A model generated the notes under the pieces. That model did not search any database. It saw only the letters and a program-made list of their open reading frames with translations, and was not told the DNA's origin. DNA of 64,000 nt from Candidatus Rokuibacteriota bacterium (GTDB lineage: Bacteria; Methylomirabilota; Methylomirabilia; Rokubacteriales; CSP1-6). The translations under genes and the position numbers were made by a program. Shown here one piece after another: positions 1,869 through 13,009 of the stretch. Every line of letters starts with the position of its first letter. Positions within the stretch are counted from its first letter, which is position 1. The stretch is from assembly GCA_003220225.1 (NCBI GenBank), contig QHRU01000033.1:62001-126000 (forward strand). Direction: 5' to 3'.

Positions 1869-2171
1869 CTCCGGCGCGTCCGCGGCCAGGCGGTCGAGGT
1901 ACGCCTGCCACTCGACGGGCAGGAGCGACTTCTTGCGCGAGTTGCAGTCCTTGCACGCGGCCACGACGTTGCCCCGCGCCGAGGTGCCGCCGCGGCCGAG
2001 CGGCACCAGGTGATCCATCGTGAGCGCCTTCGGACCCACGCGTCGGCGGCAGTAATAGCAGACGCCGTCGGATCGGCGGCGCTTCCACCACTGGCTGGCG
2101 CGCAGCTCGCGCGCCTTCGCGCGCTGCCGCCGCAGCTCCCCCGGATCGACAGGCGCGTAGAAGTCAGTCAT
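1866..2171 (-). CDS. HNH endonuclease family protein, 101 aa
   Basis: This is a small HNH nuclease domain. It shows the first zinc pair CYYC, the catalytic core DHLVPLGRGGTSARGNVV, and the second zinc pair CKDCN followed by SRKK. This is the McrA/HNH_5-type ββα-metal fold that cuts or nicks DNA. No targeting domain, methyltransferase or phage gene is nearby, so the biological target is unknown; such stand-alone HNH proteins occur widely in soil bacteria. Its start overlaps the 3' end of the upstream ABC-F gene by 8 nt, so the two are probably co-transcribed. Confidence 0.85.
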   Translation of the reverse strand: MTDFYAPVDPGELRRQRAKARELRASQWWKRRRSDGVCYYCRRRVGPKALTMDHLVPLGRGGTSARGNVVAACKDCNSRKKSLLPVEWQAYLDRLAADAPE

Positions 2172-4077
2172 GGCCCGCCAGCGCCGTGGAGAGCTCCTCC
2201 CACTCGCGCATGAGCCACGCCATCTGCTCCTCGGCGCTCTTGCGCTCGCCGGCCACCGCCCGCGCGCGCTCGCCGTCGACGTAGAGGGCAGGGTCGGCCA
2301 GGGCCGCGCCGATCTGCTCCAGCCGCGCCTCGAGGGCGTGGATGCGCGCCTCCACCTCCTCCACGCGGCGGCGCAGGTCGCGCACCTCGGCGCTCACGCG
2401 CTTCCGGCGAGACGGTGGGGTCGGCGTGCGCTGATCCGCGGCGGGCACGGGCGGAGCGGGCGGGCGCGCCACCGTCGGGGCCGGCGCGGGGGCCGTCGTG
2501 GCCGCGAGGTAGTCGTCGTAGCCGCCGAGGTAGCGCGTCAGCCGGCCGTGGTCGACGTGGGTGACCTCGGTGCCGATGCGATTGATGAAGTAGCGGTCGT
2601 GCGAGATGAACACGATGGTGCCCGGGAAGCCGGCGAGCGCCGCCTCGAGCACCTCGCGCGAGGCAAGGTCGAGATGGTTCGTGGGCTCGTCGAGACACAG
2701 GAGCGCGCCCGGCCGCACCAGCATCTTGGCCAGCGCCAGGCGCGCCTTCTCGCCGCCCGAGAGCACCGACACCTTCTTGTCCACGGCGTCGCCGGAGAAG
2801 AGGAAGGCGCCGAGGATGGCGCGCAGCCGCGTGTGCGGCAGCCCCGGAGCCGCGGCGACGATCTCCTCCAGCACGGTGTTCGACGACGTCAGCGCGTCGA
2901 GCTGGTGCTGCGCGTAGTAGTGAACGGCGACGTGGGCGCCGAGCGTGCGCTCGCCGCGCTCGAAGGGCAGCACGCCGGCCAGGATCTTCAGGAGCGTGGA
3001 CTTGCCGGCGCCGTTCTCGCCGACGAGGGCCACGCGCTCGCCACGCTCGACCGCGAAGTCCACCCCCGCGTAGACCACGTTGTCGCCGTAGGCCTTGTGC
3101 ACGCCGGTCAGCGTCGCCACGCGCCGGCCCGTGCGCGGCGGCTCGGGGAACTTGAAGTGGATCCGCCGCGCGGCGCCGGGCAGCTCGATGCGCTCGACCT
3201 TGGCGAGCATCTTCACGCGGCTCTGCACCTGACGCGCCTTGGTCGCCTGGTAGCGGAAGCGCTCGATGAACCGCTCGATCTCCTCGATGCGCTTGGCCTG
3301 GTTGCGCGCCTGCGCTTCCAGCAGCGCGTGGCGGGCCTCGCGCTCGACGAGGTAGTCGTCGTAGTCGCCCGGGTAGACGGTGAGACCCGCCGTCGACAGC
3401 TCGGCGATCGAGGTCACCATGCGGTTGAGGAAGTAGCGGTCGTGGGCGACGACGACCACCGTGCCGGCGTAGCCCGCGAGAAAATCCTCGAGCCACGCGA
3501 GCGACTCGAGGTCCAGGTGGTTCGTCGGCTCGTCGAGCAGCAGCAGCGAGGGCGCCAGCAGCAGCAGGCGGGCCAGCGCCGCGCGCATCCGCCAGCCGCC
3601 CGAGAACTCGGCGACCGGCCGCGCCAGCTCGTCGGGACGGAAGCCGAGCCCGCTCAGGATCGCCTTGGCCTGACTCTCGAGCCGGTAGCCACCGAGCGCC
3701 TCGAAGCGGTGCTGGAGGTCGCCGTAGCGCGCGGTGAGGGCGTCGGTCGGCGCCGTGGCCAGCACCGCCGCGACCTCCTCCATGTCGCGCTCCAGCGCCC
3801 AGACGTCGGCGAAGCCGGCGAGCGCCTCCGCCAGCACGGAGCCCTCGCCGCTCGCGGCGGCCTCCTGGGCGAGGTAGCCGACGGTGGTGGCGCGCGGGCG
3901 GCTCACGCGCCCCGCGTCGGGCTCGTCGAGGCCGGCCAGGATGCGACAGAGCGTCGTCTTGCCGGCGCCGTTCGGGCCGACGAGCCCGATCCTCTCCCGG
4001 TCCGCGATGCGCCACGAGAGGTCGCGGAAGAGGACCTGCCCGCCAAACGACTTGGCGATCGACTCGACGGCGATCAC
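2164..4077 (-). CDS. ABC-F family ATPase (Uup/EttA-like), 637 aa
   Basis: This protein has two ABC nucleotide-binding domains and no membrane segments, the hallmark of ABC-F proteins that act on the ribosome. NBD1 has Walker A GPNGAGKTT (residue 35 on), signature FSGGWRMR and Walker B LLLDEPTNHLDLESL. NBD2 has GENGAGKST, LSGGEKARLALAK and LCLDEPTNHLDLAS. Between them is the arginine- and glutamate-rich P-site tRNA-interaction linker (RNQAKRIEEIERFIERFRYQ). The C-terminus is a proline-rich hinge and a coiled coil (about residues 560-630), as in Uup. The start is GTG at 4077, with only weak Shine-Dalgarno. The leader consists of dispersed repeats (4081-4251), so expression may depend on repeat-derived structure. 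Which ABC-F subgroup it belongs to cannot be settled here. Confidence 0.9.
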   Translation of the reverse strand: MIAVESIAKSFGGQVLFRDLSWRIADRERIGLVGPNGAGKTTLCRILAGLDEPDAGRVSRPRATTVGYLAQEAAASGEGSVLAEALAGFADVWALERDMEEVAAVLATAPTDALTARYGDLQHRFEALGGYRLESQAKAILSGLGFRPDELARPVAEFSGGWRMRAALARLLLLAPSLLLLDEPTNHLDLESLAWLEDFLAGYAGTVVVVAHDRYFLNRMVTSIAELSTAGLTVYPGDYDDYLVEREARHALLEAQARNQAKRIEEIERFIERFRYQATKARQVQSRVKMLAKVERIELPGAARRIHFKFPEPPRTGRRVATLTGVHKAYGDNVVYAGVDFAVERGERVALVGENGAGKSTLLKILAGVLPFERGERTLGAHVAVHYYAQHQLDALTSSNTVLEEIVAAAPGLPHTRLRAILGAFLFSGDAVDKKVSVLSGGEKARLALAKMLVRPGALLCLDEPTNHLDLASREVLEAALAGFPGTIVFISHDRYFINRIGTEVTHVDHGRLTRYLGGYDDYLAATTAPAPAPTVARPPAPPVPAADQRTPTPPSRRKRVSAEVRDLRRRVEEVEARIHALEARLEQIGAALADPALYVDGERARAVAGERKSAEEQMAWLMREWEELSTALAGHD

Positions 4078-4080
4078 GCG

Positions 4081-4251
4081 CGCTTGATCATAGGCTCGCC
4101 TCGGACGGCGGGGATTCGGTCACAGGCTCGCCTCGCCTCTCGGCTACGGCTCGCACTGCGGCCCCGCGACGTCCTACGGCTCGCACGCTTGATCATAGGC
4201 TCGCCTCGGACGGCGGGGCCCCAGCCCCGCGACGTCCTACGGCTCGCACTA
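4081..4251 (-). repeat. cluster of dispersed repeats (family A) between PPOX and ABC-F genes
   Basis: A 33-bp sequence (4081-4113) is repeated exactly at 4186-4218, and a 26-bp sequence at 4161-4186 is repeated at 4224-4249. Read on the minus strand, each unit starts with GTGCGAGCCGTAG and later contains GAGGCGAGCCTATGATCAAG. The TAG stop codon of the PPOX gene (4249-4251) sits at the edge of the first unit. The same GTGCGAGCCG core recurs after ispE (29928 on) and, with one extra A, near 5045-5093. Confidence 0.75.
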
Positions 4252-4650
4252 CCCCATGCCCTGGACGGACTCTGGCGTGATCTTGGCGATCACGCGCACT
4301 TCCCCGGGCCGGCGGTTCGGATACTTGTCCTTGCCCATGTACTTCTTGGCCAGGGCATCGATGTGCGCGTCGGCGCCCTGTTCCGTCATCTCGGCGACGC
4401 GCCCGCGCACCTGCACGTAGCGGTACGGGTTGTCCGGGTCCTGCACCGACAGCGCGACGACCGGGTTCGCCTTGAGATTCCTGTCCTTCACCCGGCCGCG
4501 CGCCGTGTTGATGCGGACGTAGGTCCCGTCGAAGTCGCACCACACCGGAGTGATTTGCGGTCGGCCGTCGCGGCCGACGGTGGCGAGGTGGCAGAACGCC
4601 TTCTTGTCGAAGATGTCGCGGTACTTGTCGAGACTCGAGGCCATGGTCAT
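4249..4650 (-). CDS. PPOX-class flavin/F420-type oxidoreductase, 133 aa
   Basis: This is a small split-barrel protein of the pyridoxamine 5'-phosphate oxidase superfamily. Typical features are AFCHLATVGRDGRPQITPVWCDFDG near the N-terminus, then INTARGRVKDRNLKANPVVALSV and YVQVRGRVAEMTE. Its length and motifs resemble the PPOX-class F420-dependent group, though FMN or haem use cannot be excluded. Its ATG overlaps the TGA of the upstream selenoprotein gene (ATGA), so it is translationally coupled to it. A joint redox role is plausible but inferred. Confidence 0.85.
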   Translation of the reverse strand: MTMASSLDKYRDIFDKKAFCHLATVGRDGRPQITPVWCDFDGTYVRINTARGRVKDRNLKANPVVALSVQDPDNPYRYVQVRGRVAEMTEQGADAHIDALAKKYMGKDKYPNRRPGEVRVIAKITPESVQGMG

Positions 4651-4991
4651 TTCCTCCCTGCTCTGAACTGTTCCAGCACCGAGAACGCGTGGCGGATCGA
4701 CTTGACGGCCAGGGTGCCGCCCATGAGCACCCCGATATCCAGCGTCTCGGCGATCTCGGCGTCCGTCGCGCCCTGGTCGAGGACCTCCTCGACGCGATGG
4801 TCGATTCAGTCGAAGCAGTTCTGCGAGACGGCCACCGCGAGCGCAGTCAGCTCCTTGTGCTTCTTGGAGAGCGCGCCGTCGGCGAACACCTCCTTGCCGA
4901 TCTCGCCGAACGCGCGATAGACCTTCATCGGCGACTTCAGCATCAGGCCGTTGAGCCGCTTCTTCTCCGTGTTGCGCTCGTGGATGTGCAT
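4647..4991 (-). CDS. AhpD-like carboxymuconolactone-decarboxylase-family selenoprotein (CxxU), 114 aa with Sec62
   Basis: Reading from ATG 4991 (AGGAGG seven bases upstream), the frame meets TGA at 4806-4808 (codon 62) and stays open to TGA 4647-4649. The residues before the UGA (KHKELTALAVAVSQNCFD) and after it (IDHRVEEVLDQGATDAEI, then a LMGGTLAVKSIRHAF helix) together form a complete AhpD/CMD-like domain. The UGA replaces the second Cys of the family's redox CxxC (C59-F-D-U62), and E47 lies 12 residues before C59 as in AhpD. The usual His four residues after the second Cys is R66 here, with H65 beside it. A SECIS-type hairpin follows the UGA. A conventional gene finder would stop at residue 61. 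The product is probably a selenium-dependent thiol peroxidase or reductase; selABCD and tRNA-Sec lie outside the window. Confidence 0.85.
4776..4793 (-). promoter_or_regulatory. bacterial SECIS hairpin for Sec insertion
   Basis: In the mRNA the UGA (4808-4806) is followed by 12 nt and then a perfect 7-bp stem GUCGAGG / CCUCGAC closed by the loop AGGU. The loop begins 19 nt after the UGA. Bacterial SECIS elements need a stem-loop in the coding region with G residues in a small apical loop about 16-37 nt after the UGA. The E. coli fdhF element has a very similar AGGUCU loop at about 17 nt. Confidence 0.8.
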
Positions 4992-5006: not shown

Positions 5007-5133
5007 CTGGGGGCCCCGATATGGCCCCCAGACCCCCAACGAGCCATCGCAGGCTCGCCTCGGCCGTCGAACGGCCTGCGGCTTCGCACTCCCACGCGCC
5101 CCGGGAAACCCGCGGCGCTCCTCGATATTGCTA
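5007..5133. repeat. dispersed intergenic repeat, copy 2 (family B with an embedded family A segment)
   Basis: The left end is a perfect 9-bp hairpin CTGGGGGCC (5007-5015) / GGCCCCCAG (5023-5031), matching copy 1 at 1787. The right end is GCTCCTCGATATTGCTA, which supplies the TAG stop of the 166-aa gene (5131-5133). The middle (about 5045-5093) holds a family A-like segment with GGCTCGCCTCGG and CTTCGCACT. The hairpin lies only 2 nt upstream of the Shine-Dalgarno (4999-5004) of the selenoprotein gene in the direction of transcription, so it could attenuate or expose that ribosome site. Confidence 0.5.
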
Positions 5134-5631
5134 TGCCTTCGTCAGCTCGTCCCCGCGCGCGTCGGCCATCGCCCGCAGCGCGAAGAGCAGCCGCACGACG
5201 CACTGCTGGACGAGCAGCGCATCCTGCGTGAACGGGTCCGCCAGCCACTCGCGCGCCCACTCGTGGTTCTCGGCCGCGAAGCCAAGGGTGGGGGAGAGCT
5301 TCTGCAGCCGGATCAGCAGGTCGTCCTGCGGTAGCCCGGCCGCGCGCAGCCGGTCCACGACCGCGGCCCGCACGGCGGCGTTCCAGATGCCCGTCAGCCC
5401 CTCGAGCAGCGCCGCGTAGCAGGTCAGCCCTTCCTTCTGCGCCAGCGCCTGCAACACCGCGGGCACCAGCGGGTTGACGACGGTGTCCCCCTCGTCGTCG
5501 GTGCCGAAGAGCGGCCCGATGACGGGATCGGCGTTCGGCTCGTCCAGGCGCTCGACGAGCGAGGCCGCCGCGGCCGCAGGCACCGGCGTCAGCTGGGCGA
5601 GGCGATCGAGTAACGGGACGTCGCCTGGCAT
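5131..5631 (-). CDS. conserved-looking hypothetical soluble protein, 166 aa
   Basis: I do not recognise the family. The sequence is mostly helical and has no signal peptide or membrane span. Notable segments are PVIGPLFGTDDEGDTVVNPLVPAVL and a run of alternating hydrophobic helices ending in VVRLLFALRAMAD. It starts 9 nt after the stop of the efflux transporter gene and is probably part of the alkA-like/DUF971/MFS transcript. Its TAG stop is contributed by a dispersed repeat. Confidence 0.6.
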   Translation of the reverse strand: MPGDVPLLDRLAQLTPVPAAAAASLVERLDEPNADPVIGPLFGTDDEGDTVVNPLVPAVLQALAQKEGLTCYAALLEGLTGIWNAAVRAAVVDRLRAAGLPQDDLLIRLQKLSPTLGFAAENHEWAREWLADPFTQDALLVQQCVVRLLFALRAMADARGDELTKA

Positions 5632-5640
5632 GCCGCCCTC

Positions 5641-7065
5641 CTATCCGCCGGCCCGCGTCGGCTCCTCGCGCATGTCCGGGCGCGCCAGCTCCTGGGCACG
5701 TCCCGCCGGCACGAGGAACGCGGAGGCGAGCGCGAGCACGCTGACGCCGAAGCCCACCACGAACACACCGTGCAGGGCCTCGGCCATCGGCAACCCGCTC
5801 GCGAGCCGGCGCACCATCACCGCCCCCATCACCGAGAGTCCCACGGCGCCGCCGATCGTGCGCAAAAACTGCGTCAGCGACGTCGCGGCGCCGAGGTCGG
5901 CCCGCGCCACCGCGCTCTGCACCGACAGGAGCATGGGGACGAACGTCAGCCCCATGCCGATGCCGCCGAGCAGCGCGTCCCGCATCGCCACCGTCTGGGT
6001 GAGACCGGGCGCCCAGCGCGTCAGCAGCAGGAAGGCCACGGCCAGGCACGTCATGCCGGCGACGGCCAGCGCGCGGTAGCCGACGCGGAGCACGAGACGC
6101 GCGCTCACGATCGACATGGCCACCCAGCCCAGCACGAACGGCATGAGCACGACGCCGGCCGCCGTTGCCGACATCCCGCTGACGTGCTGCAAGAACAGCG
6201 GCACGAACGAGATCGCGCCGAACATCGCCATGCCCGAGAGGAACCCATTGACGCCGGCGGCGAGCACCATGCGGTGGCGGAACAGCCGGAAGGGCACGAT
6301 CGGCTCGCCCGCGCGCCGCTCCACCGGCACGAACGCGGCGAGGGCGACGGCGGCGAGGGCGAGCGGCACGAGCACGTCCGCGCCCGTCCAGACGCCGATG
6401 CGGCCGGCCTCGAGGATGCCGACGAGCAGCGCCGAGATCCCGGACGTGAAGAGCGCGACGCCGGTCCAGTCGAAGGCGTGAGGCCGCCGCACGGTCGCGT
6501 CGGGGAGCGCGCCGGCGAGCAGCGCGATGGCGACGGCGCCGAACGGCAGGTTGACGTAGAAGACCCAGCGCCACGAGCCGAGATCGGTCAGCAAGCCCCC
6601 GAGCAGCGGCCCCAGCAGCGAGGCCACCCCCCACATGCCCGACACGTAGCCCTGCATGCGCGCGCGCTGCTCGAGCCCGAACAGCTCCCCGATCATCGTC
6701 ATGCCGAGCGTCATGAGCGAGCCCGCGCCGAGGCCCTGCAGCATCCGGAAGCCGATCAGCTGGACCATGTCCTGCGAGGCGCCCGACAGCGCGGAGCCGA
6801 GCAGGAAGATGCCGAGCCCGCCGAGGTAGACGGGGCGGCGGCCAAAGAGATCGGAGACGCGCCCCCAGAGCGGCATCGTGACCGTCGAGGTGAGCAAGAA
6901 CCCCGAAAAGACCCAGGAGTAGATGTGGACGCCGCCCAGGCTCGCCACGACCGTCGGCATCGCGGTGGCGACCACGGTAGATTCCATGGCCGCCAGGAAC
7001 ACCGAGAGCATGACGCCGTAGAGCGCCCGGCGCTTGCGCGCGTCGCCGGTGACGGCCACCGCCAT
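5641..7065 (-). CDS. MFS drug:H+ antiporter, DHA2 (14-TM, EmrB/QacA-like), 474 aa
   Basis: This inner-membrane efflux pump of the major facilitator superfamily has about 14 predicted hydrophobic segments, as in the DHA2 subgroup. Early in the sequence is MESTVVATAMPTVVASLGG, the DHA2 counterpart of the LDxTIVNVALP motif. Motif A follows as GRVSDLFGRRPVYLGG, and motif C-like glycine/proline-rich TM5 is GVASLLGPLLGGLLTD. Substrates cannot be predicted. It follows the DUF971 gene without a gap (7063-7065 then 7066), so it belongs to one operon with the AlkA-like gene upstream. Confidence 0.9.
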   Translation of the reverse strand: MAVAVTGDARKRRALYGVMLSVFLAAMESTVVATAMPTVVASLGGVHIYSWVFSGFLLTSTVTMPLWGRVSDLFGRRPVYLGGLGIFLLGSALSGASQDMVQLIGFRMLQGLGAGSLMTLGMTMIGELFGLEQRARMQGYVSGMWGVASLLGPLLGGLLTDLGSWRWVFYVNLPFGAVAIALLAGALPDATVRRPHAFDWTGVALFTSGISALLVGILEAGRIGVWTGADVLVPLALAAVALAAFVPVERRAGEPIVPFRLFRHRMVLAAGVNGFLSGMAMFGAISFVPLFLQHVSGMSATAAGVVLMPFVLGWVAMSIVSARLVLRVGYRALAVAGMTCLAVAFLLLTRWAPGLTQTVAMRDALLGGIGMGLTFVPMLLSVQSAVARADLGAATSLTQFLRTIGGAVGLSVMGAVMVRRLASGLPMAEALHGVFVVGFGVSVLALASAFLVPAGRAQELARPDMREEPTRAGG

Positions 7066-10240: not shown

Positions 10241-13009
10241 CTAGAACGGCGAGGGCTGGCGATGCAGGTCGGCGGCGTTCTCGAACCGGGCGTACTGCGG
10301 CAGGAAGACCACCTTCACGGTGCCGGTGGGGCCGTTGCGCTGTTTGCCGATGATGATCTCGGCGACGTTCTGCTCGTCGGGCGGAATTTCGTCGCCTTTG
10401 TAGACGAACGGCCGGTAGATGAAGAGGATGACGTCGGAATCTTGCTCCAGGGCGCCGGAGTTGTGACTGACGATGCCGTCCGCCAGCCACGATTCCGGGC
10501 CCGGTACCGTGAGGTCGAAGACGTCCTCGTGGCCGGCGGGCCGAACATCGACGATGCGGTCCCAATCGATGTCGACCACGTTCATGTCGCCGTTTCTGTC
10601 GTCGACCGCATCGGCGTAGTCACGGACGGCCTCGGGAATATGGTTCGCGACGGCCAGCATATCGCGGGTCGTCAACTCGCTCACCCTGACCCAACCACGC
10701 TGCGAGAACAGGCGATGCTCCTGGGTCGCTCGAATCGAGCGACCGCGCGAGAGGCGGAGCGTCAGGAGACGCCGCCGCCCCACGCGCCAGACTCGTTCAC
10801 TCTTCGCAGTCACGATCCTGCCCTGCGGCGACATCGAGAGCACTTCGGGCGCTGAGTCGACGAGATCCTGGATGGCCACGCGGCGGCCATCCGCCAGCAG
10901 CACGAGCGTATCTCCTGTCACGCATTCTCTCAGGTCGGAGAGCTGCGGCCGGAAGTCGCGCTGTGCGCGCGCCTCCACCGCGCGCGAGAGCTGAGAGAGC
11001 GCGACCACCGGCACGTTGAGCTCCTTCGCGAGCGCCTTGAGCGAGCGTGAGATCTCCGAGATCTCCTGTTGCCGGTTGTCGAGCGCGGCGCGCCCGCGCA
11101 TCAGCTGCAGGTAGTCGATCACCAACAGATCCAGGCCGTGCTCGGCCTTCATCCGGCGCGCCTTCGCGCGCGCCTCCAGCACCGTGAGGCCGGGACTGTC
11201 GTCGATGAAGATCTTGGCCTCCGAGAGCCGGCCAGCGGCGGCGGTGAGCCGATGCCAGTCGGACGACGACAGGAAGCCGGTGCGCACCGCCTGCGAGTCC
11301 ACCTTGGCCTCGGAGCACAGCATGCGCTGCACCAGCTGCTGAGCGGACATCTCGAGGCTCAGCACCAGCGCGGTGCCGCGCAGGGTGACGCCGAGGTGCT
11401 GGACGATGTTCAGCGCGAAGGCGGTGTTGTGGGTGACGACGTGGTCGTCCGTGACGTAGAGCCGGGACGGGTGGGTCACGGCGATGCAGCGCGTCTCGGT
11501 CACGCGCGTCGGCTCGATGGAGACGAACATCGGCCGGCGCGGCCGGCGCGGGGCCAGGGTGCGGATCAGCTTCGACGAGAGGGTCACGAGCTCCTTCGGT
11601 TCGGCGTAGTCGATGGTGCACACATACGGGGCGCGCGGCGAGCTCCGTCGCACCGAGCACCAGCCGCCCAGCGAGCGGACGAGTGCGGCCACGCCGCGCG
11701 CGAGCCGCCCGCTGCTGGCGGACACGCGCAGGGTGCCCCGCGCCTCCACCACGCCGGCCGCGTCGAGAAGGCCACGCAGCAGATCCACCCGCGCCCCGCG
11801 GCGCGCGCCCATGTAGATGTCGGGGACGAACCGCTGCGCGCTCTCGATGTCCCACAGCCGGAGCCGGCGCATCGCGTCGATGACCGTGCTCGCCGCCTGG
11901 CCGTCGGCGCGCTCGGCGACCCGGGCGACGATCTCCGGGTCGGACGTCCAGAAGCGCAACGCGCGGCCCGAAAGCTCACCGGCACCGAGCAGAGCGCCGA
12001 GCAGCCATGGATCGACCGGCAGCGGGTCGGAGTGCCCGTCGTCCCCGGACGGCGTGTCGACCCAGAGGCCGTGTCGGTAGTGCTTCCGCGCCAGCAGCAG
12101 CGTGACCTGCTCCGTGGTCAGCACCCGCGGCTCGAGCCACGCCCGATGATGGACGCGCCAGAGATGCTCGGCGCAGCATTCCGTCGAGCGCCCGTCCGAG
12201 AACGTGACGCGGTACACCTGGCGCGCGCCCTGCGGGAAGACGCCACGGACGAACGACGCTCGGCCGTCGACCGAGGCCAACGCGTCGCCCGGCCTCAGCT
12301 CGCCCATCGCCTTCCATCCGGTCGCCGTCTTGACCAGCGCGTCGAGCGGCTGCGCCTTCCCCATGCTCGGACGTCCGGCGATGATGATGAAGTCGGAGGG
12401 CTGCAAGCCCGACGTCTCGAGGTCGAGCTTCTCGAAACCCGTGGCGACGCCGGTGACGTGCTCCTTCCGCTCGTAGAGGCGCTCGATGTACTCGAACGTG
12501 TTCTTGAGGATCTTGCCGACGGGCAGCGCGCTGCCTTCCAGCCGCCGCTCGGCGAGGCTGAAGATGCGCTTCTCGGCGTCGTCCACGAGCGTCTGCACGT
12601 CCTCCTTGGCGTCGAAGGCCTGCCCGATGATGTGCGTCGAGGTCTGGATCAGCTCGCGCAGCACCGCCATGTCGCGCACGATCGCCGTGTAGGAGCCGAG
12701 GTGGGCGGCGATCGACGCCTCTTCCATGAGCAGGGCGATGGCGGCGGGGCCGCCGACGAACTGGAGCTGGTCGGTGCGGCGCAGCTCCTCGTTGAGCGTC
12801 AGCGAGTCGACCGGCGCGCCGCGGTCGAAGAGGGTGAGCATCGCCTGGTAGATCGCGCGGTGGGCCTCCGTGTAGAAGTCCGAGGGCCGCAGGACTTCCA
12901 CCACGCGCGGCAAGGCCTCGCGGCCCTCCAGGAGCACGGCGCCGAGCACGGCGCGCTCGGCGTCGAGATTGTGCGGCGGGATGCGCGAAGGAACTTCGAG
13001 CGGGCTCAT
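10241..13009 (-). CDS. dnaB: replicative DNA helicase DnaB containing two inteins, 922-aa precursor
   Basis: DnaB is the hexameric replication-fork helicase. The N-terminal domain (residues 1-110) has PPHNLDAERAVLGAVLLEG. The RecA-like C-domain has Walker A GRPSMGK at 212-218, interrupted by intein 1 (219-528) before TAFALNI. Walker B is LLVIDYLQLM near 629-637. Motif H4 SDLRE is interrupted after residue 695 by intein 2 (696-850), followed by SGALEQDSDVILFIYR. Removing both inteins leaves a 457-residue helicase, a normal length. Without splicing the ATPase site cannot form, so helicase activity depends on two protein-splicing events. The gene follows rplI in the same direction with its own 224-bp upstream region. 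Confidence 0.97.
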   Translation of the reverse strand: MSPLEVPSRIPPHNLDAERAVLGAVLLEGREALPRVVEVLRPSDFYTEAHRAIYQAMLTLFDRGAPVDSLTLNEELRRTDQLQFVGGPAAIALLMEEASIAAHLGSYTAIVRDMAVLRELIQTSTHIIGQAFDAKEDVQTLVDDAEKRIFSLAERRLEGSALPVGKILKNTFEYIERLYERKEHVTGVATGFEKLDLETSGLQPSDFIIIAGRPSMGKAQPLDALVKTATGWKAMGELRPGDALASVDGRASFVRGVFPQGARQVYRVTFSDGRSTECCAEHLWRVHHRAWLEPRVLTTEQVTLLLARKHYRHGLWVDTPSGDDGHSDPLPVDPWLLGALLGAGELSGRALRFWTSDPEIVARVAERADGQAASTVIDAMRRLRLWDIESAQRFVPDIYMGARRGARVDLLRGLLDAAGVVEARGTLRVSASSGRLARGVAALVRSLGGWCSVRRSSPRAPYVCTIDYAEPKELVTLSSKLIRTLAPRRPRRPMFVSIEPTRVTETRCIAVTHPSRLYVTDDHVVTHNTAFALNIVQHLGVTLRGTALVLSLEMSAQQLVQRMLCSEAKVDSQAVRTGFLSSSDWHRLTAAAGRLSEAKIFIDDSPGLTVLEARAKARRMKAEHGLDLLVIDYLQLMRGRAALDNRQQEISEISRSLKALAKELNVPVVALSQLSRAVEARAQRDFRPQLSDLRECVTGDTLVLLADGRRVAIQDLVDSAPEVLSMSPQGRIVTAKSERVWRVGRRRLLTLRLSRGRSIRATQEHRLFSQRGWVRVSELTTRDMLAVANHIPEAVRDYADAVDDRNGDMNVVDIDWDRIVDVRPAGHEDVFDLTVPGPESWLADGIVSHNSGALEQDSDVILFIYRPFVYKGDEIPPDEQNVAEIIIGKQRNGPTGTVKVVFLPQYARFENAADLHRQPSPF
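10460..10924 (-). mobile_element. mini-intein in the DnaB H4 region (155 aa, no endonuclease)
   Basis: The intein spans residues 696-850. Block A is CVTGDTLVLLADG, block B is IRATQEHRLF, blocks F and G are VFDLTVPGPESWLADG and VSHN, and the +1 extein residue is Ser. It is close in length and sequence style to the well-known Synechocystis DnaB mini-intein region (CISGD...VFDLTVPG...HN). It lacks an endonuclease domain. It sits between SDLRE and SGALEQDSD, apparently two residues before the Synechocystis site (SDLRESG/S). Confidence 0.92.
11426..12355 (-). mobile_element. class 3 intein in the DnaB Walker A motif (310 aa) with decayed LAGLIDADG endonuclease
   Basis: The intein spans residues 219-528, inserted between K218 and T529 of GRPSMGK/T. 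It begins with Ala (AQPLDALVKTATGWKAMGEL) rather than Cys or Ser, like mycobacterial and mycobacteriophage DnaB inteins. The class 3 WCT triplet is present: W284 two residues after block B H282, C508 in block F (TRCIAVTHPSRLYV), and T526 before the terminal H527-N528. The two LAGLIDADG motifs are recognisable at 336-344 (LLGALLGAG) and 411-419 (LRGLLDAAG), but both catalytic Asp positions are Ala (343 and 418), so the homing endonuclease is probably dead while splicing residues are kept. Confidence 0.92.

Follow-up and report, generated by a model that had tools for sequence, protein, structure and literature searches.

AhpD-like and CMD selenoproteins with a CxxU motif have been known since 2005 (PMC1088965, PMC2398784); the AhpD-like 2 and CMD-like CxxU proteins come from the Sargasso Sea and GOS sets (PMC1088965, PMC2398784) and are relisted in PMC13188914. 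In the AhpD of M. tuberculosis, Cys130 and Cys133 constitute the reactive pair, and Glu118 and His137 participate in a proton relay (PMC3141380). Both cysteines and the relay histidine (His137 / His55) are reported to be invariant in AhpD-like peroxidases (PMC3141380). The rules given for bacterial SECIS elements place the loop 16–37 nt after the UGA, with a loop of 3–9 nt and a stem of 4–16 bp, and further ask for a G within the first two loop positions and an MFE ≤ −7.5 (PMC13188914).

The gene described here, Sec-CMD, lies in a 64,000-nucleotide stretch of contig QHRU01000033.1 (positions 62,001–126,000, assembly GCA_003220225.1; hereafter the window) from a Candidatus Rokuibacteriota bacterium, and is read from 4991 to 4647 as a frame of 114 codons with a sole internal UGA at codon 62 (4808–4806; Table 1). 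The host genome is a MAG, and the organism is a soil and groundwater bacterium. The active site is Cys59-Phe-Asp-Sec62, in the sequence CFDUIDHR, and on the sequence evidence the gene genuinely encodes a selenoprotein, one of the CxxU type already known among AhpD-like/CMD proteins. The first-pass annotation had proposed an AhpD-like CxxU protein at 4647–4991, and our data bear out UGA62 as the only interruption, the C59-F-D-U62 site, Arg66 and the family assignment, which the PF02627 match supports; the positions were right, and the strand, which had been left unstated, is minus. The plus-strand frame across the same positions does not encode a CMD protein. A crude filter for other UGA-interrupted genes in the window gave 22 candidates, and on reading only Sec-CMD yielded a coherent protein. 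The gene is a clean natural case of a selenoprotein that standard-code annotation would split or truncate.

Table 1 Features of the Sec-CMD locus, in window coordinates
Feature	Positions	Strand	Remarks
AhpD/CMD-like selenoprotein gene (Sec-CMD)	4647..4991	-	114 aa, ATG start, in-frame UGA at codon 62, terminal UGA; PF02627 58.6 bits, orthologues in 45 genomes
Sec codon UGA62, second position of CxxC	4806..4808	-	UGA in 34/34 distinct orthologues, Cys in none
Cys59, first residue of CxxU	4815..4817	-	invariant 34/34
Arg66, at site of AhpD proton-relay His	4794..4796	-	invariant 34/34; His in Cys homologues
Bacterial SECIS hairpin GUCGAGG-AGGU-CCUCGAC	4776..4793	-	fully paired, with compensatory changes and fixed synonymous sites
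PPOX-like (PNPOx_N) gene adjoining Sec-CMD	4249..4650	-	likely start ATG 4644-4642 rather than ATGA overlap
Upstream gene, conserved, without Pfam match	5131..5631	-	neighbourhood comparison
MFS transporter, conserved upstream neighbour	5641..7065	-	neighbourhood comparison
ABC-F type ATPase, conserved downstream neighbour	2164..4077	-	neighbourhood comparison

The PF02627 score compares with a gathering cut-off of 23. In the NCBIfam profile search, the only model above its cut-off is TIGR00778, which describes the general AhpD core domain (29.6 vs 27.8 bits), and no family model is reached at its curated cut-off: TIGR04169 scores 44 vs 120 bits, NF041047 (GSU3128) 32 vs 110 bits and NF041537 37 vs 510 bits, and TIGR00777, the model for AhpD proper, the AhpC adaptor, is not matched. 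The predicted structure comprises six helices (pLDDT 94), and its nearest solved fold is that of Thermotoga TM1620 (PDB 1p8c, 1vke), with a TM score of 0.91 and 29% identity. TM1620 shares the fold over the full length, the CxxC site and a Glu at the relay position, but carries Cys for Sec and His for Arg66 (CDDCIRYH). M. tuberculosis AhpD and PA0269 share the two-helix motif with Glu, Cys and Cys, of which the cysteines form a reactive pair (PMC3141380); they are, however, longer (177 residues and 145–165 residues in the PA0269 chains, respectively, against 114), and the window protein has neither the relay His nor an ahpC neighbour nor the TIGR00777 match. With the Sargasso Sea and GOS CxxU proteins it has in common PF02627, Sec as the second residue of CxxC and a SECIS after the UGA, whereas the group to which it belongs is set apart by CFDU with Arg66, by its occurrence in Rokubacteria, by lacking a named model and by the Cys form not being found in the lineage. 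Sec-CMD is described as a new orthologue group, without a named model, of the known CxxU kind. A literature search, covering part of the literature, found neither a study of rokubacterial selenoproteins nor one of the relay His in Sec-containing AhpD.

When 290 related genomes were searched at the protein level, the Sec-CMD orthologue was identified in 45, including the host's own, at identities of at least 66%; each copy has one TGA, and no Cys form occurs among the 45. The public records that carry the gene are MAGs of Candidatus Rokubacteria / Rokuibacteriota. Among the 34 distinct orthologue sequences, on which all conservation counts are based, codon 62 is always TGA, Gln57, Asn58, Cys59, Phe60, Asp61, His65 and Arg66 are invariant, and the relay Glu47, 12 residues before the first Cys, is kept in 32. 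Remoter members from the same order and class read CFDU, CFEU or CWEU and retain the Arg; in homologues that have Cys instead of Sec, the motif is CPWC, CEGC, CESC or CDDC. The dN/dS ratio is 0.19 downstream of the UGA and 0.22 upstream, so that purifying selection acts beyond the UGA; the view that homologous protein is encoded on both sides of codon 62 is thereby upheld.

The hairpin has a perfect 7-bp stem and an AGGU loop, as had been claimed; the 19 nt given earlier as its distance from the UGA is the distance to the loop, and the stem already begins 12 nt after the UGA. It fits the published rules (7 bp, AGGU, 19 nt, −10.7 kcal/mol; PMC13188914), but in this GC-rich DNA its fold stability is not above that of shuffles (z = −0.03), and a simple bSECIS filter is passed by 17% of random coding codons. 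Stability by itself was rejected as proof, and taken singly the hairpin is weak evidence. Across orthologues it is strong evidence, and we accept the SECIS because the hairpin is conserved in 34 of 34 distinct orthologues, where 238 of 238 cells pair, not because of its fold stability. One stem pair varies (C-G in 29, G-C in 4 and U-A in 1), five sequences being changed on both sides, and the covariation score of the stem was reached by none of 500 shuffles. On the 5′ side of this pair the codons seen all encode Val67 (GTC/GTG/GTT), and on the 3′ side the amino acid itself changes, Asp72 becoming His or Asn. Furthermore, the Val70 GTC and Leu71 CTC codons are fixed in all 34 orthologues, whereas every other Val or Leu position outside the hairpin region varies in codon use. 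The SECIS thus shapes the protein, in that residue 72 (Asp, Asn or His) varies with the base at the third position of codon 67.

The Sec system postulated in the first-pass annotation is present in the genome: a tRNA-Sec with anticodon UCA (69.7 bits vs a gathering score of 47), selB (372 bits) clustered with selA (585 bits) on contig C5, and selD (335 bits) on contig C159. The selD gene has a UGA of its own as well, in a CAGU motif presumed to be the active site. Both selB with tRNA-Sec and conservation downstream of the UGA, the absence of either of which had been set beforehand as grounds for abandoning the claim, were found, and the claim is not refuted. Among the relatives, selB was detected in 69 of 76. 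Neither selB nor tRNA-Sec was matched in five MAGs that carry the UGA gene (G023, G033, G034, G045 and G091); since the sel genes form one cluster of about 5 kb, a missing contig, i.e., an assembly gap, is the likely explanation, although one of the five, G033, is rated 100% complete, which counts against it.

Selenocysteine is not confined to this gene. The host genome contains 19 PF02627 matches, in nine of which a single UGA occupies the redox position, within CxxU in eight and NTHU in one; CxxC is absent from the other ten. Ten of its 19 AhpC-TSA matches (G000, L228–L237) likewise carry one in-frame UGA, each at the active-site Cys position, in motifs such as UPFC, UPYC, UPDC, TPGU and similar; adding SelD brings the total to at least 20 selenoprotein genes in this genome (nine CMD, ten AhpC/Trx-type, SelD). 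The host belongs to the same phylum, Methylomirabilota, as a MAG that is selenoprotein-rich in like manner. For that MAG, 63 predicted selenoprotein genes are given by Deng et al. 2026, as quoted in PMC13188914. The NTHU subgroup (G000 C28:12608–12778; orthologues, e.g., L202, L203 and L207) carries Sec but lacks the partner Cys as well as both relay residues, Glu and His; its SECIS is conserved, and the predicted chemistry must differ from that of CxxU. Pooled over nine genomes, the CMD domains comprise 54 with Sec, 71 with neither Sec nor CxxC, and 12 with CxxC, a count that includes a probably spurious CARC and is best read as 11–12 Cys proteins. A stem of at least 6 bp with a loop 16–22 nt after the codon is found at 51 of the 54 Sec sites, at none of the 12 CxxC sites and at 7.7% of background codons.

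These observations bear on how UGA62 is decoded. Under standard decoding UGA means stop, and Sec-CMD itself ends in a UGA, so codon 62 might be an ordinary stop, or a mutation in a truncated or decaying gene. We give this reading virtually no credence: in all 45 genomes the UGA occupies this codon, with purifying selection downstream, SECIS covariation and an invariant C59-F-D-U62, and the conservation seen in these sequences already refutes it. A frame kept open by an altered code, with UGA62 read as Cys or Trp, would look identical to the one observed. Yet UGA is the terminal stop in 23 of the 34 orthologues (TAG in 7, TAA in 4), the in-frame UGAs fall at the redox Cys positions of CMD, AhpC/Trx and SelD genes, the sel machinery is complete, and SECIS hairpins accompany the UGAs and not the CxxC codons; reassignment of the codon is highly improbable.

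With respect to the residues expected of an AhpD-like peroxidase, the CxxU spacing is invariant, the relay Glu47 is largely kept (32/34) and the relay His is absent, Arg66 taking its place in 34/34. The suggestion that Arg66 marks a subgroup is supported by these counts and by the Cys homologues examined, which have His at this position, the nearest Cys branch being the TM1620-like CDDC/CDEC group; the subgroup, as delimited from sequence, appears to be an unnamed one. Over the pooled CMD domains the His is retained in 18 of 54 Sec proteins (36 are without it) as against 11 of the 12 Cys proteins; on these counts Fisher's test gives p = 0.0003. On the tree, the His was lost about four times, in Sec lineages only; the tree, built on 85 columns and poorly resolved, contains six well-supported independent Sec/Cys pairs, with a median sign-test p of 0.5. 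The link between Sec and loss of the relay His is suggestive and falls short of being established, because the tree offers too few independent cases. A distant genome (G152) encodes a Sec-CMD homologue (L114, GCYGUIEYH) that keeps the relay His, alongside a Cys homologue (L115), so Sec does not force loss of the His.

We hold with considerable confidence that Sec-CMD is an AhpD/CMD-fold selenoprotein with a SECIS-directed Sec62; redox chemistry carried out by Sec62 and Cys59 is, on its own, somewhat favoured. SelB with Sec-tRNA-Sec would bind the hairpin after the UGA and insert selenocysteine at position 62, as we infer because the RNA structure is conserved and the Sec machinery present. The product would be a compact CMD protein built of six helices, resembling Thermotoga TM1620 and probably oligomeric by analogy with its relatives. 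In it, Sec62 occupies the site of the second, catalytic cysteine of AhpD. A hydroperoxide or disulfide would oxidize the Sec62 selenolate, Cys59 would resolve the oxidized Sec62 through an Se–S bond, and a cellular thiol reductant would regenerate the pair. A selenol is already ionized at neutral pH, for which reason the His that activates the Cys in AhpD may be unneeded; Arg66, at the site of the His, may stabilize the selenolate. The function is most plausibly that of a selenol peroxidase or disulfide reductase, and with the relay His absent, peroxidase activity is not assured.

Two other roles for a genuine selenoprotein have to be weighed. In Bmp8, a debrominase with the CMD fold, a His lies at +3 after CxxC, matching the position of His65 (CMYCKSH in the PDB alignment with a sister Sec-CMD; CFDUIDHR in the window protein), and deiodinases are Sec enzymes, which could point to a reductive dehalogenase or deiodinase-like enzyme rather than a peroxidase; the closest sequences and folds are, however, of the TM1620 type with His at +4, and no halogen-metabolism genes were recognised among the neighbours read, so that we consider this role unlikely. 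A place in arsenic or organometal metabolism, like that of the AhpD domains of arsenosugar-associated and ArsM selenoproteins, is suggested by TIGR04169 and NF041537 being the best NCBIfam matches, but is very unlikely given that both score far under their curated cut-offs (44/120 and 37/510 bits) and that no arsenic genes were found among the neighbours read. Redox chemistry at Sec62/Cys59 remains the preferred account.

The gene order in most genomes is MFS transporter, conserved gene, Sec-CMD, PPOX and ABC-F ATPase, and no ahpC was found next to Sec-CMD among the neighbours read. The conserved gene directly upstream in most Rokubacteria read (5131–5631 in the window) encodes a 166-aa protein. 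The PPOX start is usually a few bases from the Sec-CMD stop. The ATGA stop/start overlap reported for this pair does exist in the host genome, but it is not conserved: the ATG is missing there in about half of the orthologues read, an ATG two codons further on is conserved and commoner among them, and in the window this later ATG has the better Shine-Dalgarno spacing (GGAGG, 8 nt). No PPOX match is present at five loci (L049, L057, L059, L069 and L102) where Sec-CMD is still found, and the Sec protein is thus independent of PPOX; the obligatory coupling that the overlap had been taken to imply does not hold, and PPOX as an obligate partner is rejected. Direct repeats of 24–36 nt (ATCATAGGCTCGCCTCGGACGGCG and relatives) in the intergenic stretches 4078–4250 and 5046–5069 flank the PPOX/Sec-CMD pair. 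Elsewhere in the window, a gene at 10241–13009 on the minus strand encodes a replicative helicase DnaB with a match to an intein splicing domain (PF14890, residues 704–850) and, on reading, an apparent second intein further upstream.

A broader proposal, which we advance tentatively and regard as doubtful, is that in Rokubacteria the CMD/AhpD redox branch has been largely converted to selenium, Sec making the Glu/His relay dispensable. If true, nature would itself have set up an experiment on the advantage that selenium gives an enzyme. Within the lineage a single small fold is represented by many Sec/Cys pairs, some retaining the relay His and others lacking it, so that the reasons for which enzymes use selenium become testable among close relatives.
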